Positions 5,159 through 64,000 of a stretch of DNA of 64,000 nt are shown piece by piece (the first letter of the stretch is position 1; every line of letters begins with the position of its first letter). This DNA is from Amphiura filiformis (lineage: Eukaryota; Echinodermata; Ophiuroidea; Amphilepidida; Amphiuridae). The position numbers and the translations under genes were made by a program. The DNA lies in assembly GCF_039555335.1 (NCBI RefSeq), contig NW_027305495.1, positions 1,116,001-1,180,000 on the forward strand. Direction: 5' to 3'. The notes under the pieces were generated by a model that saw nothing but the letters and a program-made list of their open reading frames with translations, was not told the origin of the DNA and searched no databases.

Positions 5159-5371
5159 AAAATGGGATCCATGTTCGCGCACACATCTGTGAAGTTGGCC
5201 AAGGGAGAAATAAACAGAATGGTTGGCGATGGTTTTTGTCCGATAATGATCCATGTAAATGTACAAGCATCAAACTTAGAGGATTCAACGTAGACACTAC
5301 TGAATGGTCGTTCGATTCTGAGTACAAGAAGTACGTGGATAGTCCGTGGTTTGGAGGCTTGAAATGCAATG
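5159..5371 (+). CDS. Exon: four-cysteine extracellular module, copy 1
   Basis: The exon lies between an acceptor (attttcag) and a donor (g|gtaggaat) and is 213 bp, phase 1 to phase 1, with an open frame of 70 codons. It contains four cysteines (HIC, PCKC, LKC), a GWRWFLSD stretch and a WSFDSEY stretch. I do not recognise the family. The frame has no ATG before the acceptor, so it is an internal exon. The duplicate at 46424-46636 is the same length and intact, which supports real coding. Comparing the two by eye, eight codons differ in amino acid and one is silent. Confidence 0.7.
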
Positions 5372-11300: not shown

Positions 11301-14300
11301 ACGAGCCAAGTCATGGTCAGGATTTGGTCGGACATCTTTGGGTAGCCGCTAGCACCAACCTGGTGTTTTGAGCGTCCAATTGCCCGGGTCCAATTGTGCA
11401 AATAAAAGCCGCCTAACACTAGAGAAGATGCAAGGACGAGGAGGGTTAATATAATAATATATATCATAGAGATAATTCCGCAGGCAATCCCATCGCATCT
11501 ATTCATACATAGTCCTTTTGTTCGCAAGTACATCAATGCATAGATACCGCGTGTAGTTAATCCGATTATTATGTATTAAGGTGTAAAACGGGTGATGGAA
11601 TGCAGTTTAAAATTTCCGTCAAGGCCGACGGCTACCCAACTAAAGGCTGCTAGTCAGGTGTAGGAATGCGTGAATTTAGATTAGTCTATACCAGGTGATT
11701 TAATTAATTTGTGACAGCGGTTTTAATATTAAAAGGAAATTAATGTGTATCACAATGGCCAATATAACAGTAAGCTATTGGATGGTACAGAGTGTCCCAG
11801 AAAAAAATACCGGGCGAATGAATTTGGACGTAAGTCGAGAAATCAACATCAGAATCCAAAATTGTTCTGCATCTAATACGCAAATTTTACTAAAATCGGT
11901 TGACTGATACCGAAGAAATGAGCGATTATATAACGTATGCGTCAATTCACTTCATTCCAAGTTTGAAAGAAAGATCATTCAACACAAATTATGCGCACTA
12001 GTGGTTAACTGTCAATGGGCTTCATATTTTGTTCTGTGAAATCCTTTTCGTTCTTTTTAAACAATATTTTTCTTGCAAAACATTCAAATTTGAAAACCTG
12101 CACGATATTGAAAATAAAAGCTTGCATGTAAGATGATGCTCGGTACTTGTAATTTTTTCGTTAATGTTGATATAGATGTTGCATAAAGAATTATTGCATA
12201 AAGAATTCCAGCTGGCTTGAAAAATTTCTCACACACATTAATAATTTTGGAATATTTCCAAGAAATTGTAATGAAAAGTTTAAATCTTTTAAACCCCAAC
12301 ATTAATGTTGCATGGTATCAAAAATCACACGTAAAGCTGTAAGCACTTTATCATTGTCAATTTTGGCTCAAATGTTCCTTGGAAAGTTAAAATATAACAT
12401 ATTTGCACAACATAAAGAATTAAAGTTGGAAAGCTTCCACTTGCAGAAATCAAAGTTTTCTCGGACAAACTGTAATTCATCTTCAGTGAAAGCATGAATG
12501 ACGTAACACCGTCGGATTATAAAATAGATAATGTGGACTAAATTAAATGAGATACGCAAACTTTAGGAAGCGGTAAGCATTTATGAAAAAGCGCCTGTTG
12601 ATCAAACTTGGAATGAACTGCATTGATACATGCATTATGTAATCGTTCATTTCTTCGTAACCACTCAACCGAATCAAATAAAATTTTCGTATGTGGTGCA
12701 CAACAACATAAGCTATGCGATGCATTTTAATTTTTTTGATTTTGATGTCTATTTCTTGACTTACGTTCATTTTGATTCCCTCGGTAATTTTTTATGGGAC
12801 ACCCTGTACACTACAATGTTACCAATTATTTTTCATAACACCTAAACCATAAACGAATCATCTCATGCCAAGTTTTTGGTGGCGTTATGAGAAATATATG
12901 AGTTTTCTTTTGATTCATGTAATTATTTCGTTTAAGGTTAGCAACAACTTTAAACTGTTGCGATTTGGTAGTGCACAGCATCTTGCGAATGGTAGTGAGC
13001 TTTGGTAAAAATTGCATTGCTCAATTCATAGCGAGCATGTAGAAGAATCTAAATATCACAGATATACTTTTGTAGGTCCTGTGGTTCTTGAGTCATGTTG
13101 TAAAAAGGGCTGAAACAACAACACTTTTGAAAAACGTAGATAACTCATTAGCAGTAATAAATTAAGCAAGTTTTCAAAGTATATGATTTGTAGAATTAAC
13201 TTTTGCAAAAAATCAAAGTGTTATTTTTCAATAATATATTGATTTATTGATTCGACCAACAACACCTCGTCTACCCTTAAGCTAACCCAAATCCTAGCCC
13301 TAATCGTAATCATAACCCTAATGCTAACCCTAATCCTAAACTAATCCTAACCTTAATCCTAACCCTAATTTCGTGTAAAATTACATGAAGGAGTAACGCA
13401 AATCCTGTCACACAAGTTTTAGTTTATCCTTTGCACCCACAGAACCAAGCCAAGCCAAACTTTTTTTAGATTTCTGAGATGACCCCAAAACCCCAAAAAT
13501 ATAAACTGGCCCCAAGGGTTTTTTTAAGACGACGTCCAAAATAATCATTATAACTGAAAACGTATGAATACTATTTCTGAACCAAACTAACTTTTTCTAC
13601 AGCCACTTACAGTTTCAAAATATTAAATTAAAATCTGCCCTTTTCTCCATAGCATGTAGTCAACCCATGGCTCTTGGTATGGAAAGTGGATCGATCAGCG
13701 ATGCCCAGCTCAGCGCATCTTCTTACTATGTATGGATTACTGTTCATTTTAGCCCTTCAGAAGGCAGACTCAACAACGACATCTATTGGGCATCTAAAGG
13801 TAACGACATGGGGGAGTGGTTCCAGGTGGATTTCTTATCTGTAGTCACAGTCACCGAGATCATTACACAAGGAACAGGGAAATGGAACGTAGAGGAATGG
13901 GTAACAGAGCTTCGTATTGAATTTGGAGACTCTGCAAGTACATTGTTGCCTATAAGGAATGCTGGTGATAATATGGTAAGTGTTTGTTATAGAAATTATT
14001 ATTAATAACTGTTAAAAATTTATATCATGCATATACTACATGTAGTTACAAGTTACGTCAACCATCACTTCATGATATATTATTTACCCCAGCATGAAAA
14101 ATCCAATAAATCCAACAGCCGAAATTATCAAGCGCAATTATCCAAACACACATGCACACTAACCATGCTAACACGCTGGCCGGTCCAGCGCAACAGTCAT
14201 GGCTTGCTATCTCCGACCCTGCCCTCCGCACTCGAGGGGTGGTCAGTGGCTCTTAACCGGACAGAAGCAAGCTACTTTTCTCTACAGCTTTCTTTCCCTT

Positions 14301-18316: not shown

Positions 18317-18386
18317 TTAATACAGAGTCACGAAGTCATCCAATTCCTCTGATTGAACACCCTCGGGTAGTAAGCGTCTTGAGAAC
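18317..18386 (-). CDS. NLR copy 1 exon 9: C-terminal tail and stop
   Basis: A 70-bp terminal exon (acceptor ctatcatag) that continues the phase-2 end of exon 8. It encodes GFSRRLLPEGVQSEELDDF, then VTLY and stop. The identical peptide is encoded at 54306-54375. Four bases after the stop a GGCAGTAGCGTAACC-type repeat end begins. Confidence 0.8.
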
Positions 18387-18876
18387 CTATGATAGAAGAA
18401 AATAATTACATATGCAATGTAGTACTTGGTTTTGTTTAATATAGTAATTTAAAAAATGTCTTTAAAATAAAAAGTAAACAAACAAGTTGTCTGCTATGAA
18501 TAATAAATAAAATAGAAAAAGGGAAATAAGTTATGACTTATTTTTTAAATCAAACTAAGTACTTATATTACTAGAAGTTCTTGACATTGGAAAATTGCTG
18601 ATTTGTAAATAGTAATTTAAACACTTAATAACAAAAAGGTAAGGTTTTTGTTAAAAGATACAGATAAAAATTTTAAAATTAATATGACTGAAAAAAGAGA
18701 GAATCATTCACAAATATAAAATAAAAAGTTAAATTAAAATGTATACATTTTAATAAAACTTTTATTTTCCTTATATGAATAACCATTTGCAATTATCAAG
18801 GTGTCATATTGATATTTTATTTATGTTACACTACGAGTATAATTATCCTACCTCCTAATTTAAAAATAATGCTTAC

Positions 18877-20518
18877 CCTAACTCATCAAGGCATTTCAGT
18901 TGACTCAGTCTTGTCAGCTCTTGAAATGACCTCATGTCTAGATGTACTCCATCTAGATACAACCTCTTGATAGACCTTGCTTGCTGCATTCCCTTCATGA
19001 ATGTCGCCACACAATCCTCAGGAATTAAATCATCGCAAGAAGAGGGCAGTATAAGCTCGAGCCAATGCAATTGAGTGCATGATATCAATGCTAAGCCACC
19101 GTGTTTCACTAAGTCTCCTGGATACGGACTGCCTTTGACATACAGTTTCTGTAGACATGTGAGTTTGCTATGTATTGAGTGCAGTAACTCATTGTGTTTA
19201 CTCTTACTCAAATTATCCACATTGATACACAGCTCTAACAGATTCTGAGATAGAGTAACCATTAGGGGTGAAGCTACTGCATCACTCATCGCATTACCTG
19301 TAATACGCAATCCTGTTAGTTGTGATGGTAACTTCTGTGCCAATAATTCCATATCAGGGGATGGTATGTTCATGTTGTGCAAATACAACTTTTGTAATGC
19401 TTGGTTGAGTTTGTTAGCAAAGACCGGTATGCCTTTTCCTGCCTCAGCTTTATTGTATGAGATATCAAGTACACGTAGTAGCGGCATTTTGTGCAGGAAT
19501 GACATAAGTTTTGTGGTTTGTTGCTGTGTAGAGGCAGTTGACCTTGCATACATCTCCAAGAGTGACTTCATATCACCTCTTTCTATTGATTCTAATAAAG
19601 AATCGAAATTACTACCAAGTTTGAAGTAATTCACATTTAGTCTTTTTAATGTGATATTCTTCAAGCTGTGTATTATAGGGCCAATGTTTGTTTCCGACGA
19701 AGACGGTAATCCTTCATATGCCTGAATGCATACAATGTAAGCTGCCAGATGCGCTGGAGTATACAGACAAATCCAGTTCTCGTGTAGGTCTGGGTTTGAC
19801 GAGACAAACGACTCCCGCATTTGTTGTATTTTGTCCTTAGAAAGATATTTCATCCTACGTAGAGAATTGTTGAACATTTCCAAAGATGGTCCAAGACAAA
19901 CATCAGGATCACTGACGTTTGCAATTGGTCGTAATGTTATGTCAGAGATAGCGCCAGCTCCACAATATTTCATGAAATATGCCAGTGCGAGTGCAGTTTT
20001 CGATGAAATTCCATGAAATAAGACCTTGTCATCCACGAAAAATCTCCTTAAAGTCGAAACGAACTCAGCCTTGGCATCAGCTTCAAAGTTGCATTCTAGA
20101 CACAACTCAATATACTGTTGAATAGGTCGCGAGTCGTCTAAGGATAGTTGTTCATTATAATATTTCTGCGCTGGAATTTCAGACTCGAAAATGTTCAACA
20201 GCTTTTGCATAATTGACTTGGCGGCAATTTTTGATCTATACTTAGGGCATCTTTGACAGTGTTTACGTTTTGTAGATAGGATGTTACCTTTCTGGGATTA
20301 TTTTGGAGATAATTGCCAGCGCAAAATTCCTGTCCTGATTTGTGGAAGAATTGTAACGCATGTTCTCCCCTTCTACATAAAATTCCCATGCTGCGTGCTT
20401 GGTCTAGGTATTTCTGTTCACACGATTTCTTGACTTCTTCTTCTGTAAATACGATCTTTGTCGTTGGCGGTGTCAAACCATTGACAGCTAATTCTCCGAG
20501 AGCAGAATATAACATTTC
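18877..20518 (-). pseudogene. NLR copy 1 exon 8: winged helix and LRRs, 25-base deletion
   Basis: A long exon (acceptor tttcag, donor gg|gtaagc). It starts with a NACHT-associated winged-helix segment (LGELAVNGL, GILCRR, FFHKSGQEFCAGNYL) and continues into several LRRs (MPLLRVLDISYNKAE, LTGLRITGNAMSD, LTCLQKLYVKGSP). Compared with copy 2 about 25 bases are missing near 20235-20250. The frame is broken there, leaving 20195-20518 and 18877-20210 open in different frames. Confidence 0.9.
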
Positions 20519-20977
20519 CTGAAACATAATTGAACCAAACGGTCTGAGAACTCATTTGATACATGTGGTATGACTAAACAATAGATAGCATTATAAGTGA
20601 TATCTTTTCAAATTGTCCAGAGCACATTATTGGTATCAAAACATTAATATGAGGCGAAAGCCAATTTTTTTTTATCATATTTTTCAAATTTCAAATTTGA
20701 TCGTGTCTGCCAAAAGAAAAATGGAAACCAATTCGTTCTTTCTTTTCACTTAAAATTGTGCCAAATGTAAATATATGCACAGATAATTATGCTAATCTGA
20801 TGAACATGATGACATTAAACATTCTCCATTTTGGAATCATAACCATAGACATTATTGCCAGTAAAGAAGTCATATTTTTGATTTAATTGTTTTGTTTTGT
20901 AAATAATACACTGTAGTTCAAATATAAATTTCATTATTATCGCTACTTCTAATACGACATTGACAACAAAATTCAAA

Positions 20978-21177
20978 CATGATTTTGATTTAAACTTTTG
21001 ATCCAAACACAAGGAAATAATTTCTACTTCGGAATTTGCAGATGATACTCTATTTTTCATCAGCGAGTGAGTGACTTTATCAGGTCGAGATTTTCTTGAC
21101 CTTTGACCTGATAACAGACTCGTAGACTGATACATTATTTCCTTGTGTTTGGATCAAAAGTTTAAATCAAAATCATG
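20978..21177. mobile_element. Penelope-like 3' fragment with 44-bp palindromic arms
   Basis: Arms 20978-21021 and 21134-21177 are perfect inverted repeats (catgattttgatttaaac and so on). The loop encodes on the minus strand LLSGQRSRKSRPDKVTHSL, matching the tail fragment at 35548-35900. Absent from unit 2. It sits in intron 7 of the NLR pseudogene. Confidence 0.6.
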
Positions 21178-21274
21178 ATTTATACCAACACAGATGAACT
21201 TTCATTAAAACATATTTTCAATTGATACAATCAATGATAAGACGTTCCTTAATAATAAAACAAACGATTCACAC

Positions 21275-21385
21275 CTTCTGTGACTTAACGTTACTTCTTC
21301 TGAATGTTGGTGGTAACAGTCGTGACGAACGAATCCTTTCAACAAGGTTTGGTTGCGCTTGCAGCTCTTGGGCACTTTGAGTACT
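21275..21385 (-). CDS. NLR copy 1 exon 7: short connector
   Basis: A 111-bp phase 0-0 exon (acceptor attttag, donor aag|gtgtga) encoding 37 residues beginning STQSAQELQAQP. It is found only by splice sites and by its match to 58195-58311, which is 6 bp longer and still in frame. Confidence 0.7.
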
Positions 21386-21467
21386 CTAAAATCAAGAACA
21401 TAGCAAATTTGAAAACATAAAACTTTAAGTAATTGATTAAATAATTAGCCAATAATAAAATAACAAC

Positions 21468-21469
<2 letters not shown>

Positions 21470-21511
<42 letters not shown>

Positions 21512-21520
21512 AACAATAAC

Positions 21521-21570
<50 letters not shown>
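21470..21570. repeat. Microsatellite (AAC)n then (AAT)n
   Basis: About 100 bases of caa/aac repeats passing into aat repeats, 25 bp from the NACHT exon donor. Missing in unit 2. Confidence 0.9.
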
Positions 21571-21571
<1 letters not shown>

Positions 21572-21595
21572 CTCTCTCTAAATCGTACGTCTTAC

Positions 21596-22508
21596 CTCAT
21601 CTGAAGTAGATTTCATGAAGTTGTCATACATGATTGTTACTATATCGTCGTAGAATTCACTGACCCTGTCTGGTATGCCCTTTTTGCCATTCGTTGCAAC
21701 CCAGTACCACGAAATCAACAATACCATTAATGGAGTAGAAATATCCAATAACAGTTTATTGTCGTCGATATAATGAAGCAATCTCTTTCCTAATGCTATT
21801 GTTGTCAGATCTGTGGGATTCTGTCCGAAGAGTTTCTTAACGTAAATTCTAACATCCGAGCGCTTCATCTTTTGTAACTCTAAGCGTCTATATACAGGAA
21901 TCTCTGATATAAGTTCCTTTTCCATCCAAGGTCTTGTCGTCACAAGGACGCAGCACTCACGATATTGTTTGAATCGTATGATCTCTACAAGGTTCCCAGT
22001 AATTTCGTGTTTGAATAAATCAGGAGGAGCTTCATCTAACCCGTCAAATACGATAACAACCTCTTTACCTAGAGTATGAATGACTTTCCCAAGTGTAGAC
22101 CTATCCACATTCGAAGACAGCAACTGCGAACAGATAAAATCTTCAATATTGCTGGTATATTTTAAAGTTGCTAATTGAATAATGAATAACAATTGTACGT
22201 CTTTGAGGGAGACAGACTAGATTGATGACACCAGTCAAAGGCCAATTTGGAACAGAATGTAGACTTTCCTTGACCCGGATTGCCTGTCAGTATATAACGT
22301 GCATCTTCCTCGCTCTCGAAAATCTCTTGATATGATTCCAAACGCTCTTTTATCGGTCGCATCCCAGGTATCGTAATGTCAATAGTCACTGGTACGTAGA
22401 TGCGATCTAAGTCCACATAATTTCCAGGTTGCCATGGATACATTTGCTTTTTGCAGTAACTTTTCAGGTAGTATTTCCTTAAATCTGCAGCTATTGATTG
22501 CACCAAGT
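21596..22508 (-). pseudogene. NLR copy 1 exon 6: NACHT domain, 1-base deletion
   Basis: A NACHT NTPase exon with donor gag|gtaaga and acceptor tttcag. Visible motifs: Walker A GNPGQGKST, Walker B VVIVFDGLDEAPP, sensor LVTTRPW and the STPLMVLLISWYW region. A run that is gagggg in copy 2 is gaggg here (near 22209). It shifts the frame, so the exon reads as two overlapping frames (about 22171-22508 and 21596-22192). Length is 913 bp against 914 bp in copy 2. Confidence 0.9.
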
Positions 22509-22665
22509 CTGAAAACAAGAACATAATGAAAGTGAATGTATTCATGTTAGAAAATTAATATATTAGTAACAATGCAACCTGTAGACTAGACCAAAGAATA
22601 CAATTGATGAATGATCACAATATCTTGATTATTTGATATTTAAGAAAGAACGTTTTTAGACTTAC

Positions 22666-22815
22666 CGTTGTAATTTTCTTGAGTGTCAGAGAGAGTTACA
22701 GGTTCAGATTCACGAATGTCTTCATTGACATTAGTTTGGTTTAAAGACACAAGGGGTTCATTTGGCAATTCGGTGTGAGGACTGGTAGCATCTGGTCCTT
22801 CATCAGCATTAACAG
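22666..22815 (-). CDS. NLR copy 1 exon 5: acidic linker before NACHT
   Basis: A 150-bp phase 1-1 exon (acceptor ttaacttag, donor cg|gtaagt) of 50 residues, rich in Glu, Asp, Asn and Thr (PHTELPNEPLVS, EDIRESE). Probably disordered. The counterpart at 61266-61397 is 18 bp shorter and keeps the PHTEL and EDIRES parts. Confidence 0.75.
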
Positions 22816-22884
22816 CTAAGTTAATATAATAAAATTGATAAATACATATTACCCTATTCATATTAGACATTAGAACTTTATTTC

Positions 22885-23035
22885 ATATTCGACATAGCGG
22901 AACTTAATTCATATTCAACATAGCGGGCCTTCGACATAGCGAACCTTCTTTATATCCGACATAGTGAACTGGTAATGGAAATTACCAGTTCGACACAGCG
23001 AACCTTCGACATTGCAAACTTTCGCCATAACGGGC
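22885..23035. repeat. Minisatellite of ttcgacatagcgaacc units
   Basis: About seven degenerate units (cgacatagcggaact, caacatagcgggcc, cgacatagcgaacc, cgacacagcgaacc). Located in NLR copy 1 intron 4, with a small ggtaatggaaattacc palindrome. Confidence 0.6.
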
Positions 23036-23130
23036 GTACACCATATTGTTCCACTCTACTTATTTATGATGAGCGGCTTTTACAGCTACATTTTTGGCTA
23101 ATTTAGGCATAGATTATCAGATTTACGTAC

Positions 23131-23259
23131 CTTGTTCAATGGTGTGCTCTTCACAAGGAGAATCTTCAACAAAATGCATTTGACATAGAAACCCCATACA
23201 GTCAGGACATGCTACGAATACTTCTTCGGCACAACCATGGACTTGACCCAGTTGCACTT
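23131..23259 (-). CDS. NLR copy 1 exon 4: B-box-like zinc finger
   Basis: A 129-bp phase 1-1 exon with donor caag|gtacgt and inferred acceptor ttccgggag. It encodes a compact Cys/His array: C-x7-C-x2-C-x4-C-x2-H-x6-C-x2-H (GCAEE, CPDC, FLCQMH, PCEEH). The spacing matches a B-box zinc finger, except that the second ligand of the first pair is unclear. Unit 2 carries the same exon at 63938, conserving CQ-x-H and C-x2-H up to the window end. B-boxes are usual in TRIM proteins and mediate assembly. Confidence 0.7.
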
Positions 23260-24273
23260 CTCCCGGAAGGGAACCGATAATTGAAACATTTTGTTCATAT
23301 GCGTTAAATCATGTAAGATCATAAATTGATTTCTTAATGACATGTTCGTTGATCGACTATATGCTGCAAGGTCATATTTCGAAAGCAGTGCATATTATTT
23401 ATTATTTATTCATTAATTTTATTTCTTAGTAGGTATTATTTAATATTTTAATCACCCATTTGACAGCGCTCACAGCAAATGTAAAAGAACCGTGTCACAA
23501 AAAATGAAAATTTCGAACATTTATTGATATGAGGTGTGTGAATTGTAAGGTTCTAACTGATATTCTGGTGTGTTTGCAATATATCCGTTTTAAATTCACA
23601 AAAAACAAATACAAAACAAAAGACATTCAAAAGACATTCTAAAGCTTTGAAAATAAGAATTTCAAAACTATCATCATCACCAAAAATTACCAAAGCATCA
23701 ATTAGAACCAGGGATCTACTACGAAGGGATAGGCTTCTGAAATCACGTGACGAAACCGAAATATGTATCCTAGGTCGGACAATAGGCGGATTAGCGGCCA
23801 TTTTGTCTTCGACATGATTTTATTCACGTGTCCTTACACTTTAGTACACAAATATATAAGTTAACAGGCTTACAATATTAAAATTATATTTTGAATATAC
23901 AATATATTCTGTAGTAAATCGATCAAATGACGGTGATTGTTCAGGTATTATATGCTTGATAAAATTAAACTGTCTGACCAGCTAGTATTCTCCTCCGCCG
24001 TCAGTGTGATTCCAGACACACCACGTACCGTGTTGCGAAGGTGGAGGAGACTAAAGCTGTATTGACGAACACGCATGCGTTAAAAAATATGTAGCCTAGG
24101 TCGAACATTAGCATGACGTAGTTTCCGGCATTGTTCCTATGCACTTTCACCTGTTAGAACCTTGTAATTTTTAGCTCACTAGATAACATGCGCATTTTCA
24201 TAGCGTGAAATATTGGCGTGTTTCGGGGCTTCTGAAAATGGGTCACATGTTTATTTCTGCAATAGCTACACAC

Positions 24274-24403
24274 CTGATAGAGAGGCTTTGTTCGTCTGTA
24301 GCGATTCCTCTTGCTTCATTTGAAGAATAATATCTTTCCCGATAGGGTGCACGGTATCCTTATCAATATGCACTTGGGTGTAGGGGGTGACATTTGTCTT
24401 AAT
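24274..24403 (-). CDS. NLR copy 1 exon 3: linker
   Basis: A 130-bp exon, too short to stand out as an ORF. It is placed by its acceptor (aatttcag), donor (tcag|gtgtgt) and phases: it begins in phase 0, matching exon 2, and ends in phase 1, matching exon 4. It encodes 43 residues including VTPYTQVHIDKDTVH and a KQEE stretch. No domain recognised. Confidence 0.65.
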
Positions 24404-25122
24404 CTGAAATTAATAACCGACACAAAATGAAATAGAAATGTCATTGCAATTGCAGTGATACATAAAATGTCAAATCTCTCAAATAGATCAATTTCATGGC
24501 AATTCAATAATAGACCAACGGTCAGTGTACCTGTGCACTTACGCGTTATTTCAAAGGACACATTATTTGCAAGGCTGATAAAAGATCACATTCCTCACAA
24601 AATACCAACCAAAATTATTGATTCAAACCCCAGAAAACTGCTTTAATTATAGGTCCCGGCGTATGAATCTTTATACATAGACATACTTACGCCCAAAAAG
24701 CCGACGTAAGTTTCGGTGTTAGAAGCAATTGGCGACCTTGAAACTTACGAATGTTAGAATATTTGCAGTACGTTATCAAAAATGTTTTTGAATGATATAT
24801 AAACGTTTTATACCCTTTATACGCCCTTTATATAACCCGACATTTAAACGTTTTCTGTCAACCTTTTCTAACCCTTTGCGAATAATGTCGAAAACGTTCT
24901 GTGTTTGCTGGGTTAGTTATGTTTGGTTTGGGAGTTAAAATGTCCAAAACATTCACTCTGTTTCCAACGATACAGATCTTTCAGAGATAGCCTGTATATG
25001 CAATGCAGACGAACGGCGTAAGTATAGTGCAGGGCAATACATTCAGAAATAGTGTAAACCCATTGTTATGGTAATTAATTTAGTTACATCACTACTTCTA
25101 CGGCGAATTACGTCAGACGTAC

Positions 25123-25302
25123 CTCTATCAATTTGTTGCGCAATTCGTCTGCTGATTGTTGTGTGAAATACTGACGTCCTAAACTTTCAAGTCCGTCCAC
25201 GAGATCTGTGATGTCTTTCCAAAATGCGTTAAATGTCAGATCATCAAGTTGAAGTTTGTTTCTTACTTCGAAATGAGCAAGCATATTCCGAATAGAAAAA
25301 AC
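25123..25302 (-). CDS. NLR copy 1 exon 2: HEPN-like domain with Rx4H motif
   Basis: A 180-bp phase 0-0 exon (acceptor cctttacag, donor gag|gtacgt) of 60 codons. It begins VFSIRNMLAHFE, giving the R-N-x3-H motif shared by HEPN domains, followed by LTFNAFWKDITDLVDGLESLG, the helical end typical of DZIP3-like HEPN domains. In HEPN RNases this Arg/His pair is catalytic. Whether this one cuts RNA is unknown. The exon joins exon 1 in frame. Confidence 0.75.
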
Positions 25303-25513
25303 CTGTAAAGGTATAACATAAATCAAAATTTCAGTTATTTCGCTCCAAAAATGCGTTGAACGTGTGGTTATTAGGCTGTAATTTCTTTTTTACCTCCAAA
25401 TGAGGTAAGATATTTCGAATATGGAAATCTATGTACCAAAGAATATTTCATTTGTATACGATGACGCGAAATCACAATTATGTTAAATTTATAATTATAG
25501 TCACAATTTTTAC

Positions 25514-25969
25514 CTTCATTATTTGTTCAAATACAGATTGATCGCCGCCATGAAATCCCTTAAATTTACTCATAATCATGAGTAATGAAGCTGCATCAAA
25601 ATCCGCCAAGATTGAGAAAGTCTTCTTGGCTGGTATCCGAAGTACAAAGAGTTTGATGACTTCCAAAGGATCTTTGCTGAATAACGTTGGATTGACATTA
25701 GTCCATTGTAAAGATCCATACGATGGGTATACCTGAGCTTCGATGTCTGCCACCCAGTCAATGCATCTCTGACACGCTTTGTTTTTGATGGAGGGTTTCT
25801 TGTTTTGTGGACATTGGTTAGGAGTGGCACAAGCTTGAATAGTTTGCTTGGTTTGATAATGCCAAGTATCAATTGCATGTTGAAGACTTGGAAGTACATC
25901 CTCCAATATGGTTTGTATTGCAGCTATGCAAGTCATAAAATTGTTATATGATTTTGGACCCATTTTCAT
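25514..25969 (-). CDS. NLR copy 1 exon 1: HEPN/CXorf38-like domain, first part
   Basis: An open exon of 152 codons starting at an ATG (25967-25969) and ending AAG|GTAAAA. An in-frame TAG lies seven codons upstream of the ATG. A possible acceptor (tatgcag) ends one base before the ATG, suggesting a non-coding first exon. The protein has a CQRCIDW motif, LQWTNVNP, PLEVIKLF and DAASLLMIM. This order resembles the animal CXorf38 family and related HEPN-type N-termini of invertebrate receptors. The assignment rests on remembered family features, not on a search. Confidence 0.7.
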
Positions 25970-32967: not shown

Positions 32968-33324
32968 GGGGTACTACACCCTCGATAAATTTGTGTCTAT
33001 TTTTGCATTTTTCTCAAAACTAATAACACAGTGGTAACAAAAGTTATGTATATTATAGGGGCAAGGAATCCAATTACTACACTGGAATTTCAGGGACCCA
33101 AGACAAGCGGTTTGTTATTTATGATAAGAAATAAGGTACCGATAGGATGTACCTCGTTTCCTATCATATATACTGAACCGCTTGTCTTGAGTCACTGAAA
33201 TTTCAGTGTGGTAATTGGATTCCTTGCCCCAATAATATACATAACCTTTGTTACCATTGTGTTATTGTTTTTTGAGAAAAATGTAAAAATAGTCACAAAT
33301 TTACCACATGGGTGTAGTACCCCC
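32968..33324. mobile_element. TTAA MITE family A
   Basis: Flanked by TTAA (32964-32967, 33325-33328). The ends are ggggtactacaccc and its inverse, with inverted arms of over 100 bp that both contain ctatttttgca-type text. The right end lies under 100 bp from the putative leader exon of discoidin copy 2. Confidence 0.8.
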
Positions 33325-33369
33325 TTAACAGCGTCATTTTGGTTGTGCTAGGCAATCAAACCGTAGTTT

Positions 33370-54305: not shown

Positions 54306-54375
54306 TTAATACAGAGTCACGAAGTCATCCAATTCCTCTGATTGAACACCCTCAGGTAGTAAGCGTCTTGAAAAT
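54306..54375 (-). CDS. NLR copy 2 exon 9: C-terminal tail and stop
   Basis: A 70-bp exon (acceptor ctatcatag) encoding the same 23-residue tail as 18317-18386 with no residue change. It is preceded by the phase-2 donor at 55433. Confidence 0.8.
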
Positions 54376-57300
54376 CTATGATAGAAGAAAATAATTACGT
54401 ATGCAATGTAGAACTTGGTTTTGTTTAATATAGTAATTTAAAAAATGTCTTTAAAATAAAAAGTAAACAAACAAGTTGTCTGCTGTGAATAATAAATAAA
54501 ATAGAAAAGGGAAATAAGAATATGACTTATTTTTAAATCAAACTAAGTAATTATATTACTAGAAGTTCTTGACATTGGAAAGTTGCTCATTTGTAAATAG
54601 TAATATTACACATAACAAAAAGATAAGTTATCTGTTAAAAGATACGAATAGGATTTTTGAAATCAATATGACCGAAAAAAGAAAGAATCATTCATATTTA
54701 TATACTTCATTAATATATTCTTGTTCATTGATTGGTCAAAAGTGGATCACATGACCAAAAATAGTTCTACCATCAGTACTCCTATCCGTAAAATTAGTAC
54801 CTCTAAGCCGTAAATAGTATTTTCAATGTCCCGGATGAGCCGTAAATAGTACCCCCAAGCCGTAAATAGTACTTTTGACCATGCATTCCGCGTGCGCGCT
54901 TTCGATGCGACGGAACAGTTCACGCACGCGAAACTGCCATAGCGTGATTTCGCGCTGCTGTAATTGGTTAGCCCGATTTTAGCCTATTCGATTTTTTTTT
55001 GAAGGGCAAAATATAGGTTGTGCTTAAATTGGTCGTGCTGTTCACTCAGGATAGAAGCTAGGTAATCAAAACGTCAAATAATTTTCTTTTAACCAATCAA
55101 TGAACAAAGAACATATTAATGAAGTATATAAAACAAATATATACTGCCTTTATTCGAGGTTCTGGTTAAAACTATGGTCCCTCGTTGAGATCAATTAATA
55201 CTAATAGTACTATTGATCTCACCTCGGGCCCATAGTTTTAACCAGAACCTCTCATGGCAGTATATATTTGTATAATATAAAAGAAAAAGGTATATTAAAA
55301 TGTAAGATATAGTTTAATAAAACTATACTTTTCCTTATTATGAATAACCATTTGCAATTATTAAGGTTTCATCTTGATATTTTATTTTATATTAGACTAT
55401 ATCCTACCTCCTCATTTAAAAATAATACTTACCCTAACTCATCAAGGCATTTCAGTTGACTCAGTCTTGTCAGCTCTTGAAATGACCTCATGTCTAGATG
55501 TACTCCATCTAGATACAAACTCTTGATAGACCTTGCTTGCTGCATTCCCTTCATGAATGTCGCCACACAATCCTCAGGAATAAAATCATCGCAAGAGGGT
55601 ATGAGCTCGAGCCAATACAAATGAGGACATGATGTCAATGCTAAGCCACCGTGTTTCACTAAGTCTCCTGGATACGGACTGCCTTTGACATACAGTTTCT
55701 GTAGACATGTGAGTTTGCTATGTACTGAGTGCAGCAACTCATTGTGCTTACTCTTACTCAGATTATCCACATTGATATACAAGCGTGTCAACTGCCGAGG
55801 TAGAGTAACCATAAGGTGTGAAGCTACTGTATCACTCATCACATTACCCGTAATATCTAATCCTGTAAGCTGTGATGGCAAATTCTGTGCCAATAATTCC
55901 ATATCATGTGATGGTGCTTCCATGTCATTCAAACACAACGCCTGTAATGCTTTACATTGGTTGAGATTGTTAGCAAGGATTGGAATACTTTTTCCAGCCT
56001 CAGCTTTATTATATGCGATATCAAGTACATGTAGTAGTGGCATTTTGTGTAGGAATGACACAAGTTTCGTGGTTTGTTGCTGTGTAGAGGCACTTGACTT
56101 TGCATATATCTCCAACAGTGACTTCATATCACCTTCTTCGATTGCTTCAAGTAAATAATCAAAATTACTACCAAGTTTGAAGTAATTCACATAGAGTCTT
56201 TTTAATTTGATGTTCTTCAAGCTACGCATGATAGGGCCAATGTTTGTTTCCGACGAAGAAGGTAATCCTTCATATGCCTGGATGCATGGAATATAAGCTG
56301 CTATATGCGTCGAAGTATACAGAGAAATCCAGTTNNNNNNNNNNNNNNNNNNNNNNNNNACAAACGACTCCCGCATTTGTTGTATTTTGTCCTTAGGAAG
56401 ATATTTCATCCTACGTAGAGAATCGTAGAAAATTTCCAAAGATGGCCCAAAAACATCTGGATCACTGACGATTGCAATTGGGCATAATGTTATGTCAGAA
56501 ATAGCCCCGGGATCACAGTAGCTCATGAAGTATGCGAGTGCGAGCGTAGTTTTTGATGAAATTCCAAGAAATAAGATCTTGCCATCTACAAATAAACTCT
56601 TAAAAGTTGAAACGAACTCAGCCTTGGCATCAGCTTCAAAGTTGCATTCTAAACACAACTCAATATACTGTTGAATAGGTCGCGAATCGTCAAAAGATAG
56701 TTGCTCATCATAATATTTCTGTGCTGGAATTTCAGATTCGAAAATGCTCAACAGCTTTTGCATAATTAACTTGGCGGCAGGTTTTGACCTAGATGCAAAT
56801 ATCAGGACAGGAGCTATACTTAGGGCATCTTTGACAGTGTTTACGTTTTGAAGATAAGATGCTACCTTTCTGGGATTATTTTGGAGATAATTGCCAGCGC
56901 AAAATTCCTGTCCTGATTTATGGAAGAATTGCAAAGCATGTTCGCCCCTTCTACACAAAATTCCCATGCCGCGTGCTTGGTCTAGGTATTTCTGGCCACA
57001 CAATTTCTTGACTTCATCTTCTGTAAATACGATCTTTGTCGTTGTCGGTGTCAAACCGTTGACAGCTAATTCTCCGAGATAAGAATATAACATTTCCTGA
57101 AACATAATTGAACCAAACGGTCTAAGAACTTATATGCTACATTTGGTATGACTAAACAATATAGCATTAGGCTGTTCCATTTAAAATCTACATTGTAGGG
57201 CAAAAATGTGGAAGATTTAGCTAAGTCTTCCACAAAGGGAGTATGAGTTTTGGATACAATAGACAATTGGGGAACCTCCATTTGAAATACACCAGTTGTG

Positions 57301-60300
57301 GAAGATAATGTTACAGCCATAATACAGGGGGCGTGTGAGTTTCAAAATGATTAACCCTAACCAATTACATTTGAAAAACATATTCCTTCTGTTGAAGATA
57401 TTTCCAAAATCTTCCACAGGGGGAGTGTGGATTTCAACTGGAATAGCCTAATAAGTGATATCTTTTTCAATTGTCCAGAGCACATTATTGGTAAGAAAAC
57501 ATGAGTATGAGGCTGGTTTTACGAGATAACATTCTCTAAAACTTCTTATGAATGAAATCAACATTCGACAGGCGGTCACGGTTCCATCCGGTTTCCATTG
57601 TTTAGAACAATAGAAACCGGACGACACCGGACGGAACCGGTGGTCTACCACCGGTCGAGTTTTGATTTCTTCCCTTAGAAATGATATTCTTCACATTTCA
57701 AATTTGACCATTTCTGCAAAAACAAACAAACACGGAAACCAATTTATACTTTCTTTTTCGGTCAAAATTGTGCCAAATTTCAATATATCCATAGATAATT
57801 ATGCTACTCTGATGAAATTAAACCCTCATTTGATATTCTCAATTTTGAAATGTATTTACTTGATATCCAATACAGGACCATAAAACATTATTGCCAGTAA
57901 TGAAAGTACATTTTATTAATTGAAATTTAATTTAATCGTTTTGGTTTATCCACGAATAAGACGTTGTAATCTACTGAACTTACTTTTTGTGGGTAGCAAT
58001 ATTTTGTTCTATACACTTGCGTTTAATAAAAATTAATAGTAAAAAAACATATAAAAATGATAATTCAAATTTAGATTTCATTATCATCGCTATACGCCTA
58101 ATACGTCATTGACAACAAAATTAAAACATATATTTTCAATTGATACAAACAATGATACAAGAAATCTCTTAATAAAAAAACAAATGATTCATACCTTCTG
58201 TGACATAACGTTACTTCTACTGAATGTTGTTGGTAACAGTCCAAAAGTTGACGTAAGAATCCTGTCAACAAGGCTTGGTTGCTCTTTCAGCTCTTGGGCA
58301 CTTTGAGTATTCTAAAACAAGAAAATGGCAAAATATTCTTAAGGGGGGTACTACAACCCTGCCCAATTTTGTGCCTATTTTTGCATTTTTCTCAAAAATT
58401 ATAGCGTATTGGTGACAAGTAAGATTTTTATATTATAGGGGCAAGGACTAGAACTACTGCACTGGAAATTTTATTTCAGCACAGACAACAGTTGTGGAGT
58501 TACAGTCAAAAATGAGGGAAACCAATATTTGATCAATAAATCAATAACTACTTGCCTTGTCACCAATGCGCTATAAGTTTTGAGAAAAATGCAAAAATAG
58601 GCACACAATTGGGCAGGGGTGTAGTATCCCAAGCAAGGAAAGTCTATTATTAGAAAGCTTGCGTACCTACAAGCGGTTACTATTAACGCTTGTTCACTGT
58701 ACCCATTAAAGCTTGCATAAGATTGGTCTATTGGTAGTACTGCTGTGATATTTAGCATGTTTTGTGGTTTTCCAGGTGACACTGTACTGTACATTTTGTG
58801 CATGGTTCCAAGTAGAGTTTTCTTCCACAGTTATCATGTTATCCTAGGCATATCAAAACAACTGTTCCTTTCAATTTAGCCAGAAGTAATGACAATGTCA
58901 AATGTCAACTCTTACAGACAGACATTATCTAATTCACGTGATTAATATTGCTACTGAAAAAGCATGTAGAATTAATAGATGAGATCTGTTTCCGAAAATC
59001 AAAACTTGCAAAAACAAGAATATTTTAACGTTTATTCACTCGTATAATCTAACATAAATATGAGTACATCTTACCTCATCCGAAGTAGATTTCATGAAGT
59101 TGTCATACATGATGGTTACTATCTCGTCATAGAATTCACTGATTCTGTCTGGTATGCCCTTTTTGCCATTCGTTGCAATCCAGTACCACGAGATCAACAA
59201 TACCATTAATGGTGTAGAAGTATCTAATAACAGTTTGTTTTTGTCTATATATTGAAGCAAACTCTTTCCTAATGTTATTGTTGTCAAATCTGTGGGATTC
59301 TGTCCGAAGAGTTTCTTAACGTATGCTCTAACATCAGACCGTTTCATCTTTTGTAACTCTAAGCGTCTATATACAGGAATCTCTGATGTAATTTCCTTTT
59401 CCCTCCAAGGTCTTGTCGTCACAAGTACGCAACACTCACGATATTGCTTGAATCGTATGATATCTACAAGATTCCCGTTGATTTCGTGTTTGAATAAATC
59501 AGGAGGAGCTTCATCTAACCCGTCTAATACGATAACAACCTCTTTACCAAGGGTATGAATAACTTTCCGAAGGGTAGAGCTATCCACATTCGAAGACAGC
59601 AACTGCGAACAGATAACATCTTCAATATTGCTGGAATGTTTTAAAGTTGCTAATTGAATAATGAATAACAATTGCACGTCTTTGAGGGGAGACAAGCTAG
59701 ATTGCTGACACCAGTCAAAAGCCAATTTGGAGCAGAATGTAGACTTCCCTTGACCCGGACTGCCTGTCAGTATATAACGTGCATCTTCCTCGCTCTCAAA
59801 AATCTCTTGATATGATTTCAAACGCTCTTTTATAGGTCGCATTCCAGGTATCGTAATGTCAATAGTCACTGGTACATAGATGCTATCTAACTCTACATAA
59901 TTTCCAGGTTGCCATGGATACATTTGCTTTTTGCAGTAATTATTCTGGTAGTAGTTCCTTAAATCAGCAGCTATTGATTGTACCAAGTCTGAAAACAAGA
60001 ACATAATTTTAATAAGTAAATATGACACTGAATGTAAATCTGTATTACACATCTGTTTGATCCCCCAAGAAAACCTCATTTGAACCTCGATCTCCTAGTA
60101 GTGTTGCCGGTATGCTGATGCCTTATAAGCAGTGAAAGCACAAAGGCGTGGCGAATTGCCCTCCAAGACTGCGGCAAAATGTCCTCCTTGGGATTTGAAA
60201 AGAATGAACTTGTAAAGAAAATATTATTTCAAACAATATCCAAAACTGGGATATAAAGTTAAAGAGTCATATATTTTGCTGAAACCTTGGTAAACGATCT

Positions 60301-63300
60301 AATGTTATACACTGAACTACCACAAATGGCGCCTTAACGGCGGTGTTGACAATATTGTACCTTATTATACAGCCAGATTAAGTAACACAATAACACTTGC
60401 ACCTCTAAAATCATTTGGCAAAAGTGACTGTTTTTTAGCAAAAAAAATGTATCTTCTTATTGAACACCAATCCCAAAAATTATATTATCATTACGTGGAT
60501 TTTTTAATCCATGTGCAGCTAAAATAGTTGTTTTGGCTAAATTCAACCTGTGCTAAACTTGATACATGGACTATTACCGGTGTATTTCATGGACTACTAC
60601 ACACGTACGGAAGCAATATGTACGTCCAAGACTGGGTCGCAGAGGTCGAATGTTTCATATGAGTTATAGACCTAGTGTCTCCAAACCTACGTGATTAGCA
60701 ATACAACCTTTAGGCCAAAGAATACTTAAAATACATTTTAATGGGTAGGTAGTTGACTGATTGATAATAAGGCACGGTTGTTTGATGTGATCAATTTTTT
60801 ACTTTTTCTAACAAAACATTATATTAACGTTCAATCTAGACCTGAATAATACCAACAGCTATCACCCTAATAACCTGTATACACACATATATATTTTAAC
60901 ATAGATTTTCGTTCCTAAATCAAAATTTTCATCATTTTCTGCGTTTTTGTGGTAACTTTTATTCTGTAAACTATATAATTGTGGGCAAATTGAGGGCGCT
61001 ATTTATATATATCTTAAATTTTAGCTAAATAATATGAGTTGACCTTGAATTAAACATGATGAAAAGTTTTTTGAAAATTTCTTTTTCATTTGTTGGTCTT
61101 TTTGCTGATGATCTAATACCATTATACAAGTGTCTATCCCTTGTAAAGATACAAATAAGATTTAAGATAAATAGCGCCATCATAGTTAAACTTTTCTTTA
61201 AAATGACTCAGTTTTACATGCCACCCAACAACCGTGAATGATTTAATGCACGTTTTTAGACTTACCGTCGGACAGAGCTTCTTTATCAGACTCACGAATA
61301 TCTTCATCGGCACGAGTTTGGTTTCCAGACACAAGGGGTTCATTTGCCAATTCGGTGTGCGGACTGACGGCATCTGGTTGTACATCGGCACAATCCGCTA
61401 AGATAAATAAATAAATGTTTAAATAATACATTTTATTGTTGTACATATAGGAGTCCAAAATATTCGAAGACATAATTGCATTATGACATCATTCTGGCGT
61501 CAGAAGGAAGTTGCAAAGTTTATTTACTTTTTTCGAATAGCGCGCGGTACAACTATGTACTTAGTGACAGGCCTCTATTGATACCTGACTTGACTTTTAG
61601 TTTTAAAAAAAGCGCAGTGATTTATAGTGCGCTACGCACAGGCAAAACGCCTAAACGTTGATCCACAAGCCTCAGCACATTTTACAGATTGTCGCTGACC
61701 ACTACGGCTCACATCATTCCATAAACCATTTAACAACAACACAGGGACTTTGCAGCTTCAAGAGCGCACACCTTAGAGTAATTTCCAGTATCTAAATAGC
61801 GCCACCAATCTTGTCATAATTAGATACATTTTATATCCGAAAAAGCTTTAAAATATGCTGTGAGATTGAATAATGTTGTAAATATGTGGTAATTAATGTT
61901 GAAAATTACTCAAAAGCATCTGTATATATTAGTATGATACCGCTTTAAGCTGTTTAAGCCTAAAAATTGGGTTGTACATGATGTTTTGTTTGAAAAACTA
62001 ATAAATGATCACATCAAACAACCGTGTGTCCAGGGGACTTTCAAGATGACTCAATTTTTCCACGAGAGCGTACTAACCACCACCAGGGTTCGAACCCGCA
62101 ACCTCTCGCACCATAGTCGAACGCCTTATCGATTGAGCTAGCTTGACTGCTATTAGTATTGTGGAACGCCAAATAATAAATAAATTCAGGAAAGTTTTGT
62201 CTGTTTATGAGGTTGATCTGCAAACATTAAAGCCGAACTACTGACCGTTGCTAACCATCAGCTAATGTACCGAAATGTTTCGAGATGATTATAATCTAGG
62301 TGGCTTATCGAAGGGAGAGGGTAAAGCTGCCCTCCTGCAGGACATACTTTTATGTAAGAGTTGATCAACACCCGGGGGGCACTTCCATGAGAGATATGCA
62401 TCATGTGCCTCGGGATAGACCCCCTTTTTCAAACCGGCTTGTACCCAATGACCCCCTTTTTGTGTTATGGTCCTACCTATTACCCAATGACCCCCTTTAA
62501 CAAAATTCATGTACTCAATGACCTCCTTTTTCTATTTCCTGCTATACCCAAATGACCCCCTTTTAATTCCCAAATTTAGGTGGTATTTGTGTTCTCCTCC
62601 AGAAATAATGAGATTTTTCACATTTCCAAGGTGACCAAGTTGTTCTTACGCAGTTTGGCACTTATTTATGTGTACTTAATGATACTCTTTTGGCAATCCT
62701 GTACTCAATGGACCTATTTTACTTTTTGTTACCCCAATGACCATCCTTTTTTCAAAGTTTCATACCGAATGACCCCATTTTTATTCAGGTTGTGTACTGA
62801 ATGACCCCATATTTTTGTAATTGTACATTTGACCTGAATGCCCCCTACTTTTAACATGGCCGAGGCACATCCCTGCCATTTCAGATAGGGAGTGCCTCCC
62901 CCGGGGATCAACACAATGGTCCTTAATTCTCACGATATATAATACGACGTATGATAAATAGATATAAAATGGATGTGTTATACAGGGTGTCCCAGAATGA
63001 TTTATACCGAAAAATTGAATTTTTTTTAGGTATGAAGAGCATTACTATTGGCAGTATTGTTTTAAATTATAAAATTCACATAATTTAGCACCTGTCCATT
63101 TTCAATAATAGCAATGTCACGCCAAAAAGAATCAAGCTATTTCAATGAAAGTCACAGAATATTAGTAGGAGAAATGTGTGTCATTGTATTGCACTTATTA
63201 AAATCAGTTACACTGTTGATCATACATTTGTGATATTTTGTTCAAACACGGTATAAATCATTCTGGGACACCCTGTACATTTAAATTGCATATGCTCCTG

Positions 63301-64000
63301 TGGCCTTTGTTTGTCCACATTATCCAATAATGCGCTGCATATTTTGGCCTCTCCCCAGCAACCGCTGGAGGCGCATCGTATTGTGAATTGACCGAATTCA
63401 AACTGACATTGCGCTTTATATCTGTGGCTTTTACAGCTTTTTATCATCCTTACTAACAGGGGCGTAGTAACCCTTTTAGTGTGTGTCCTCATTTGTCAAT
63501 TTTGTTGTCAAAAATTTAGTCATTTTAAAGCCATATTATATGTGTAGAAATTTGGAATTTAATAGCCAGCGCCGATATCGCCAATACGTATCACTCCTTC
63601 GGTCGTGTTATCATGGTAACGATACGATCCTTTGTTGTGTAGATCACCGTCCCGCACGTCATGTACGTACTGTGTTATGAACATCGCGTATGCGTTCGAC
63701 TAAAATTTCCATCGTAATAATAAAACGACGGTTCCTGCGTTTTATTCAAAATCTAGGATTTTGACAAAACTACAGCACCTAGGGTGGTGATTTTTGCAAG
63801 GTATGTTGGTTTAATAAAATACAATATAATCATGTAAAAACAGAATTTTGAAAAATATTGAGGGCGTCCTTCGCAGCAAATGTTATAATACGGCTTTAAT
63901 GACACTTTAACTTGCCACTGCTTGCTAATTTAGGTACCTTGTTCAATTGTATGCTGCTCACAAGGAGAATCTTCAACAAAATGCCTTTGACATAGAAACC
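54306..64000 (-). CDS. HEPN?/B-box-like/NACHT/LRR receptor, copy 2 (intact where visible, 5' end outside window)
   Basis: Exons, all minus: 63938->64000 (B-box-like, cut by the window end), 61266-61397, 59075-59988, 58195-58311, 55433-57096 and 54306-54375. Every junction is phase-compatible and each exon is open, including across a 25-N gap that keeps the frame. Visible product: end of the B-box-like finger, acidic linker, NACHT (Walker A GSPGQGKST, Walker B VVIVLDGLDE), winged helix, LRRs and the 23-residue tail. By analogy with copy 1 the HEPN-like exons should lie just beyond the window. Known role of the family: cytosolic sensing with ATP-driven oligomerisation. Confidence 0.88.
54699..55269. 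mobile_element. Unit-2-specific insertion with two inverted-repeat systems
   Basis: Outer arms (tacttcattaatat with tgttcattgattggt, 54699-54740 and inverted 55091-55133) enclose four aagccgtaaatagtac-type repeats (54785-54875). Directly after is a hairpin with arms of about 56 bases (55136-55195 and 55211-55269; ggttctggttaaaactatgg). In NLR copy 2 intron 8. Confidence 0.55.
55433..57096 (-). CDS. NLR copy 2 exon 8: winged helix and LRRs
   Basis: 1664 bp, phase 0 to phase 2, open throughout. The N-terminal part (LGELAVNGL, FFHKSGQEFCAGNYL) is the NACHT-associated winged helix. A helical spacer follows, then LRRs from about residue 370 (MPLLHVLDIAYNKAE, LTGLDITGNVMSD, LTRLYINVDN, LTCLQKLYVKG, SIKSLYLDGVHLD). 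Nine residues are unknown because of the N run at 56335-56359. Confidence 0.93.
56335..56359. other. Assembly gap of 25 N inside the LRR exon
   Basis: The flanks align to copy 1, which has exactly 25 bases between the same flanks (ccagtt and acaaacgac). The gap length therefore keeps the reading frame and is probably close to the true length. Confidence 0.95.
57170..57448. mobile_element. Harbinger-like MITE in NLR copy 2 intron 7
   Basis: Ends ggctgttccatttaaaatc and ggctattccagttgaaatc (inverted), with tta/taa at the borders. Unit 1 is empty (gcattataagtgat near 20590). cttccacaaaggg and its inverse are repeated inside. Confidence 0.65.
58195..58311 (-). CDS. NLR copy 2 exon 7: short connector
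   Basis: 117 bp, phase 0-0 (acceptor gttttag, donor aag|gtatga), 39 residues beginning NTQSAQELKEQP. It links the NACHT exon to the winged-helix exon. Confidence 0.75.
58343..58630. mobile_element. TTAA MITE family A, 3' end eroded
   Basis: Left TTAA at 58339-58342 and the left terminus is intact. The right terminus reads gtagtatccc and the right TTAA is lost. In NLR copy 2 intron 6. Confidence 0.75.
59075..59988 (-). CDS. NLR copy 2 exon 6: NACHT domain
   Basis: 914 bp, starting in phase 1 and ending in phase 0 at SDE|gtaaga; 304 codons, intact. Motifs in order: an N-terminal lead ending PIKERL, then YILTGSPGQGKST (Walker A), VVIVLDGLDEAPP (Walker B with an extra acidic residue), VLVTTRPW (sensor 1), RRLELQKM and STPLMVLLISW (the helical region after the ATPase core). 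The upstream frame past 59988 belongs to the intron. Confidence 0.94.
59989..61265. other. NLR copy 2 intron 5
   Basis: About 1.28 kb against 157 bp in copy 1. The extra DNA is AT-rich and non-coding. It holds one arm (60773-60793) of a 21-bp inverted repeat whose partner is at 62006-62026. Confidence 0.6.
61266..61397 (-). CDS. NLR copy 2 exon 5: acidic linker
   Basis: 132 bp, phase 1-1 (acceptor tatcttag, donor cg|gtaagt). It contains PHTELANEPLVSG and EDIRESDKEAL, matching copy 1 exon 5 with an 18-bp in-frame deletion. Confidence 0.75.
62079..62146 (-). repeat. tRNA-derived SINE-like fragment
   Basis: Minus strand: tagctcaatcgataagg (A-box-like) and gggttcgaaccc (B-box). A seven-base loop with T33 can be drawn, but the acceptor stem does not pair. 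Confidence 0.4.
62370..62910. mobile_element. Element with cccgggggg ends and internal ccaatgacccc repeats
   Basis: Ends acccggggggcacttcc and, inverted, tccccgggggaggcactcc. The interior has about ten spaced acccaatgacccc variants. No coding frame. Confidence 0.6.
62983..63275. mobile_element. Mariner-type MITE
   Basis: Perfect inverted ends beginning cagggtgtcccagaatga (27 bp), flanked by TA on both sides. Confidence 0.8.
63529..63895. mobile_element. TTAA MITE family B in NLR copy 2 intron 4
   Basis: TTAA at 63525-63528 and 63896-63899. Ends agccatattata and agccgtattataacattt (inverted). Confidence 0.75.
63938..64000 (-). CDS. NLR copy 2 exon 4: B-box-like finger, partial
   Basis: The donor caag|gtacct lies at 63937/63938. 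The visible codons read GFLCQRHFVEDSPCEQHTIEQ minus the first residue. The exon continues past the window end, where the CPDC part is expected. Confidence 0.75.

Follow-up and report, generated by a model that had tools for sequence, protein, structure and literature searches.

NLR genes in the window

The window, a stretch of 64,000 nucleotides from the ophiuroid Amphiura filiformis (NCBI RefSeq assembly GCF_039555335.1, contig NW_027305495.1, positions 1,116,001 to 1,180,000 of the forward strand), holds two copies of an NLR gene, unit 1 and unit 2, about 36.5 kb apart (repeat distances about 36-37.5 kb, in a repeat analysis that listed 20 of at least 60 repeat families). The gene of unit 1 was rebuilt from the window sequence as nine exons on the minus strand (Table 1), and its domain order is observed directly, with a CXorf38-type HEPN domain followed by a Cys/His module, a NACHT domain, and C-terminal leucine-rich repeats (LRRs). 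The locus is probably a tandem pair of animal NLRs, with unit 1 in this order and with a ribonuclease (RNase) mechanism carried over from the families to which its domains belong.

The nine exons were all recovered as placed in an earlier account made from the letters of the stretch (the sequence-only reading), and each of the eight introns starts with GT and ends with AG. The acceptors are CAG or TAG in seven of the eight cases and GAG at exon 4. Junction phases had been given as 0,0,1,1,1,0,0,2, which hold when each side of two frame breaks (see below) is read in its own local frame and fail on the literal splice. Exons 2 and 5 have codon scores above all of 1000 open non-coding windows.

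Table 1. Exons of the two NLR gene copies in the window
Feature	Coordinates	Strand	Content
Unit 1 exon 1	25514..25969	-	first part of CXorf38-type HEPN, with Cys4 ribbon
Unit 1 exon 2	25123..25302	-	end of HEPN with Rx4H motif
Unit 1 exon 3	24274..24403	-	linker; least supported exon, placed by splice sites and phase only
Unit 1 exon 4	23131..23259	-	Cys/His array; acceptor GAG, alternative start 23241
Unit 1 exon 5	22666..22815	-	linker, fast evolving
Unit 1 exon 6	21596..22508	-	NACHT; 1-base deletion relative to unit 2
Unit 1 exon 7	21275..21385	-	linker joining NACHT exon to exon 8; splice sites present in both units
Unit 1 exon 8	18877..20518	-	post-NACHT region and LRR; 25-base deletion relative to unit 2
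Unit 1 exon 9	18317..18386	-	last coding exon, carries stop
Unit 2	54306..64000	-	tandem NLR copy; exons 1-3 beyond window
Unit 2 exon 4 (part)	64000-63938	-	63 bases, 21 codons in window
Unit 2 exon 5	61397-61266	-
Unit 2 exon 6	59988-59075	-
Unit 2 exon 7	58311-58195	-
Unit 2 exon 8	57096-55433	-	N run 56335-56359
Unit 2 exon 9	54375-54306	-

HEPN domain

The profile search over exons 1-2 bore out the HEPN domain of the sequence-only reading. The spliced query matched the Pfam family DUF4559 (PF15112, the CXorf38 model) above the cut-off of 27 (71.2 bits, 1.4e-19; residues 6-217), and the match runs unbroken over the junction between exon 1, ending at residue 152, and exon 2, ending at residue 212. 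Exon 1 alone also exceeded this cut-off (59.8 bits, 4.1e-16), with an alignment reaching profile position 151. A DZIP3-type HEPN was rejected, with the spliced query scoring 18.4 bits on HEPN_DZIP3 (PF18738), below its cut-off of 27, such that only the first half of the former label "CXorf38/DZIP3-like" stands. Judged by these profile scores, the HEPN domain of unit 1 is real and belongs to the CXorf38 rather than the DZIP3 family. Searched against the sequences of the PDB, the HEPN matched acetyl-CoA carboxylase alone, and weakly (E of 0.44 or worse).

The catalytic-type Rx4H motif RNMLAH is present at residue 157 (25290-25273), ahead of the NACHT-LRR portion, as had been read from the letters. 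Exon 1 also encodes a Cys4 ribbon (C47-x5-C53 / C66-x2-C69, 25831-25763), whose four cysteines fit the Zn ribbon named as an insertion in the HEPN of CXorf38 (PMC3710099). Separately, intron 1 holds a decayed duplicate of exon 2 (25348..25421, minus strand; 73% identical over 74 bases), which has no Pfam match and still reads RNILPH, though it does not keep phase with its AG and then runs into a stop.

Cys/His array of exon 4

From residue 265, exon 4 encodes the array C-x7-C-x2-C-x4-C-x2-H-x6-C-x2-H. A strict form of this pattern, composed after the exon had been viewed, has one hit in the six translated frames of the window, at exon 4, and is found in 0 of 60 simulated windows; a looser B-box-like pattern likewise has a single occurrence over six frames, at the same exon, and none in 60 simulated windows. 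Unit 2 retains the final four ligands (C, H, C, H) in its 21 visible codons, with the first three lying beyond the window. The array described in the sequence-only reading is thus present and its pattern is unique in the window, and exon 4 probably encodes a zinc-binding module.

The assignment of this array to the B-box fared less well. From the second ligand on, the spacing agrees with the B-box consensus, with C/H swaps. The best Pfam match of the exon, itself below cut-off, is Transp_Tc5_C (20.8 bits, E 5.2e-4, cut-off 27.4; 16.7 bits, E 0.01 in the spliced protein), followed by AN1 (14.7 bits, cut-off 27.9), and the only B-box model among the matches listed was ANCHR-like_BBOX (13.3 bits, cut-off 27), with none reaching cut-off. 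HMMER filters discard most of the weaker matches, and the background was set by nine shuffles that preserved Cys and His. Of these, five gave no family match, three hit C5HCH (13.6-16.4 bits) and two hit AN1 (13.0 and 8.7 bits), while Transp_Tc5_C and the B-box models were matched by 0 of 9. Since shuffles reach 13.0 bits on AN1, the AN1 score of exon 4 is near background. Scores of the order of the B-box one are common on other zinc-finger models, though no shuffle recovered the B-box match itself. A PDB sequence search with exon 4 returned no match up to E 10. An AlphaFold2 model built from the single sequence was uninformative on a cross-brace fold (mean predicted local distance difference test score, pLDDT, 46.5). 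A B-box identity is therefore unsupported by Pfam, by the PDB sequence search, and by the single-sequence fold.

NACHT domain and LRRs

The NACHT domain is clear from its profile matches, with 89.2 bits (3.4e-25) in unit 2, where the overlapping NPHP3_N model likewise exceeds its cut-off (27.3 bits against 24.8), and with 3e-15 for exon 6 of unit 1 when the frame 3' of its break is taken alone. The Walker A (GSPGQGKS) and Walker B (VVIVLDGLDE) motifs are directly visible in unit 2, and the best-scoring solved chains by sequence are those of NAIP and NLRC4. Toward the C-terminus of unit 2, six [LI]xxLx[LIV] motifs follow one another in a chain with a spacing of 26-29 residues; the pattern was picked after the sequence had been viewed, and a chain of this length occurs in 0 of 5000 shuffles (longest, 4). 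This observed periodicity supports a predicted C-terminal LRR region. The LRR region of unit 1 had no match against the PDB.

Frame breaks and selective constraint

Unit 2 reads from its partial exon 4 to exon 9 as one open frame, with 985 residues that include 8 X at the N run, whereas unit 1 is interrupted at two places relative to this copy. Exon 6 of unit 1 is short by 1 base near 22210-22207, in a run of C, and exon 8 is short by 25 bases near 20239-20238, between direct repeats of TAG; elsewhere in exon 8 the two copies differ in length by 3 or 6 bases. On the literal splice of exons 1 to 6, the frame is lost within exon 6 (entered at phase 1) and the protein ends after residue 460, shortly after the Walker A motif at residue 424. 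The sequence-only reading, which implied an intact frame, had overlooked both breaks, and the full receptor cannot be encoded by unit 1 as assembled. An error in the assembly could account for the 1-base break, an explanation which applies less easily to the exon 8 break, bounded by its TAG repeats.

Apart from these breaks, exons 4-9 of unit 1 read in the unit 2 frame contain no stop other than the terminal one. Identical bases between the two units number 58 of 63 in the part of exon 4 within the window, 102 of 132 aligned in exon 5, 845 of 913 aligned in exon 6, 100 of 111 in exon 7, 1449 of 1608 in exon 8, and 67 of 70 in exon 9. The ratio of non-synonymous to synonymous substitution rates (dN/dS) was 0.33 (bootstrap 0.25-0.44) for the 957 codons of exons 4-9 together, the range over which constraint was measured as the HEPN exons of unit 2 lie outside the window. 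Individually, exon 6 (0.20) and exon 8 (0.34) had lower ratios than exon 5 (0.78), exon 7 (21275-21385 against 58195-58311) differed by 11 non-synonymous and 0 synonymous changes in 37 codons, and exon 9 had no amino-acid changes in 23 codons. Exons 5 and 7 may be fast-evolving linkers, on small samples and for exon 7 only as a possibility.

Purifying constraint has acted on exons 4-9, taken together, in one copy if not in both. The low dN/dS and the lack of other in-frame stops in these exons suggest that the breaks in unit 1 are probably recent. As assembled, unit 1 is probably a recent pseudogene or the source of a truncated HEPN/zinc fragment only, while unit 2 is likely the working copy, provided that HEPN exons exist upstream past base 64000.

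Weighing the single-chain receptor against alternatives

A number of observations weigh against a single chain that runs from HEPN to LRRs. The linkage of HEPN to NACHT is known from one copy, by sequence alone, and that copy carries the two frame breaks; the frame of unit 2 over its N run depends on the stated length of 25, with which it aligns gap-free to unit 1. Exon 2 alone is not matched by DUF4559 (only HEPN_DZIP3, 16.0 bits, cut-off 27), so that the family call leans for the most part on exon 1 and on the match of the two exons together. For exon 3 there is no Pfam match, its codon score is reached by 12% of the 1000 open non-coding windows (32% for exon 4), and in exons 3, 4, and 5 an alternative frame scores equal or higher on codon usage (higher in exon 3, slightly higher in exon 5). 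The GAG acceptor of exon 4 is weak, with an in-phase AAG acceptor 18 bases downstream that would move the start to 23241. No Pfam LRR model reaches cut-off (LRR_4, 15.9 of 27; LRR_14, 13.6 of 40). Of the domain order in the sequence-only reading, the HEPN, Cys/His array, NACHT, and LRR were upheld and the winged helix was not, as no winged-helix Pfam model is among the unit 2 matches and the PDB matches end within exon 6. As to activity, RNA cleavage by the HEPN of unit 1 is a proposal made by analogy.

The frame breaks invite two explanations other than decay. Both could be assembly errors, in which case unit 1 would encode the full receptor, as the sequence-only reading assumed; one break involves just one base within a C run, the assembly contains an N run, and exons 4-9 have no other in-frame stops, yet 25 bases missing between TAG repeats is an ordinary deletion signature, and this explanation appears unlikely. 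Alternatively, unit 1 could yield a functional truncated product of 460 residues (HEPN, Cys/His array, and a Walker A fragment) acting as a decoy or regulator of the full receptor, given that exons 1-5 are open and the HEPN matches its family well. Here, however, the premature stop lies upstream of several exon junctions, a usual trigger of nonsense-mediated decay, and the lack of other stops in exons 4-9 in the unit 2 frame makes the breaks look recent rather than settled, leaving a functional fragment very improbable.

The remaining alternatives concern what precedes the NACHT domain. The stretch could hold two genes, with exons 1-2 forming a CXorf38-like HEPN gene and exons 4-9 a zinc-NACHT-LRR gene downstream of it, an arrangement to which the missing homology and unclear coding bias of exon 3, the weak exon 4 acceptor, the unmatched exon 2, and the competing frames of exons 3-5 would all lend themselves; exon 2 can also be read on past its donor for four codons before a stop, and CXorf38-family proteins without NACHT are described, those of vertebrates fused to dsRBD (PMC3710099). 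All of the exons nonetheless share a strand, the introns before and after exon 3 measure 719 and 1014 bases, the phases are compatible, and CXorf38/DUF4559-NACHT fusions are reported in several animal groups (PMC3710099, PMC8298618), such that two separate genes are decidedly unlikely. For exon 4, capture of the C-terminal zinc domain of a Tc5-type transposase, in place of a B-box, is a tentative option that we hold to be rather less than even: Transp_Tc5_C is the best Pfam match and no shuffle reproduced it, but the score is below cut-off and drops in the spliced protein, the alignment covers only 25 residues, and only 9 shuffles were made. It is somewhat more doubtful still that a constrained zinc exon, possibly captured in this way, between a catalytic CXorf38 HEPN and NACHT-LRR defines an NLR subfamily in which the zinc module would drive assembly, or contact with RNA, for an RNase carried in the chain.

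Other features of the window

Outside the two NLR genes, 214 further open reading frames of at least 55 amino acids were found, and among the 21 scanned with Pfam only F5/8 type C and long interspersed nuclear element (LINE) pieces were convincing. Each tandem unit has one F5/8 type C (discoidin) exon (13568-14005 and 50187-50564) on the plus strand, opposite the NLR gene. A LINE-like element (~599-5311 and 37918-46576) has an endonuclease piece above the Pfam cut-off and reverse-transcriptase pieces just below; its longest paired stretches are 96-100% identical (other copies, 69-97%), which is above most of the NLR exons (77-96%), and this greater likeness makes a later insertion or conversion possible. 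Two identical 300-base stretches (30339-30638 and 31202-31501) lie 863 bases apart, and an inverted-repeat (foldback) family occurs at 32979-33340, 43177-43560, 48955-49312, and 58338-58630, with arms 82-95% complementary.

Neither exon 1 extended by 11 intronic codons (searched against IMG/VR) nor exon 6 of unit 2 (against IMG/VR and GTDB contigs) returned any relatives, as expected for an animal gene. NCBIfam gave no match at cut-off, and the Rfam and tRNA scans were empty.

Proposed mechanism

By comparison with the families concerned, the LRR part would keep the receptor inactive until it meets a ligand or a sign of damage, upon which the NACHT domain would exchange nucleotide and oligomerise. 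Oligomerisation would bring HEPN domains together, and HEPNs with Rx4H motifs, once paired, would be expected to cut RNA, with the Cys/His module perhaps aiding assembly or substrate contact. By analogy with RNase L, cleavage may then stop translation or destroy viral RNA.

Comparison with known systems

NAIP and NLRC4, whose solved chains score best, resemble unit 2 in their NACHT domain. Both have an LRR C-terminus, and at the N-terminus they carry BIR or CARD domains and no HEPN.

The sequence-only reading had not recognised a described family in this combination, yet the core is known. In the passages of Anantharaman et al. 2013 (PMC3710099) on the CXorf38 HEPN family, its partners include NACHT, DEATH, CARD, ankyrin, and dsRBD, the family is graded 'Active' with a Zn ribbon inserted in the HEPN, and members are listed from vertebrates, Saccoglossus, Branchiostoma, Ciona, and Nematostella, with the NACHT fusion in cephalochordates and cnidarians and an RNase L-like role in apoptosis or defence proposed. 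Unit 1 shares the HEPN family, the inserted Zn ribbon, and the NACHT fusion; for the CXorf38 family those passages mention neither LRRs nor a Cys/His array separating HEPN from NACHT, and LRR is named there for the DZIP3 family. Among open-licence literature, this paper was the only one found on CXorf38 together with NACHT, and the retrieved text of a CXorf38 paper (PMC12196990) does not mention HEPN. In Corbicula fluminea, DUF4559 is reported in 45 of 99 members of an expanded NACHT ('NLRP') family (PMC8298618), which matches unit 1 in DUF4559 plus NACHT, with domain order, zinc and LRR unmentioned in the retrieved text.

DZIP3/hRUL138-like HEPN-NACHT receptors are described from pearl oyster, cnidarians, corals, and Aplysia (PMC9646362, PMC8260672, PMC10236652, PMC9334734) and, as here, combine HEPN with NACHT in clustered copies, some with LRRs and, in pearl oyster copies, with Rx4-6H, according to the portions retrieved; they differ from unit 1 in belonging to the other HEPN family. 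The TRADD-N expansions of Crassostrea virginica (Kaur et al. 2021, PMC8195603) use STAND NTPases, HEPN RNases, and B-box, among others, as variable C-termini, but have a transmembrane DED-TRADD-N constant part, and the sections retrieved name no chain of CXorf38-type HEPN, zinc array, NACHT, and LRR. NACHT and B-box are named in separate clusters in the retrieved text of PMC3386278, and no description of this zinc exon was found in the retrieved portions of open-licence literature pairing NACHT with B-box or zinc finger. Taken together, the CXorf38-NACHT fusions of 2013, DUF4559-NACHT in Corbicula, and the DZIP3-type reports make the core architecture of the locus already known, and the zinc exon is its unusual part.

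The core idea was thus proposed in 2013. The locus contributes no new principle but one more example of it, in which a zinc module may be present and a sister copy is decaying. Should the complete protein be produced, a single chain would give this animal receptor an RNA-cutting effector of its own, a logic comparable to that of the bacterial HEPN-STAND proteins mentioned in PMC3710099.

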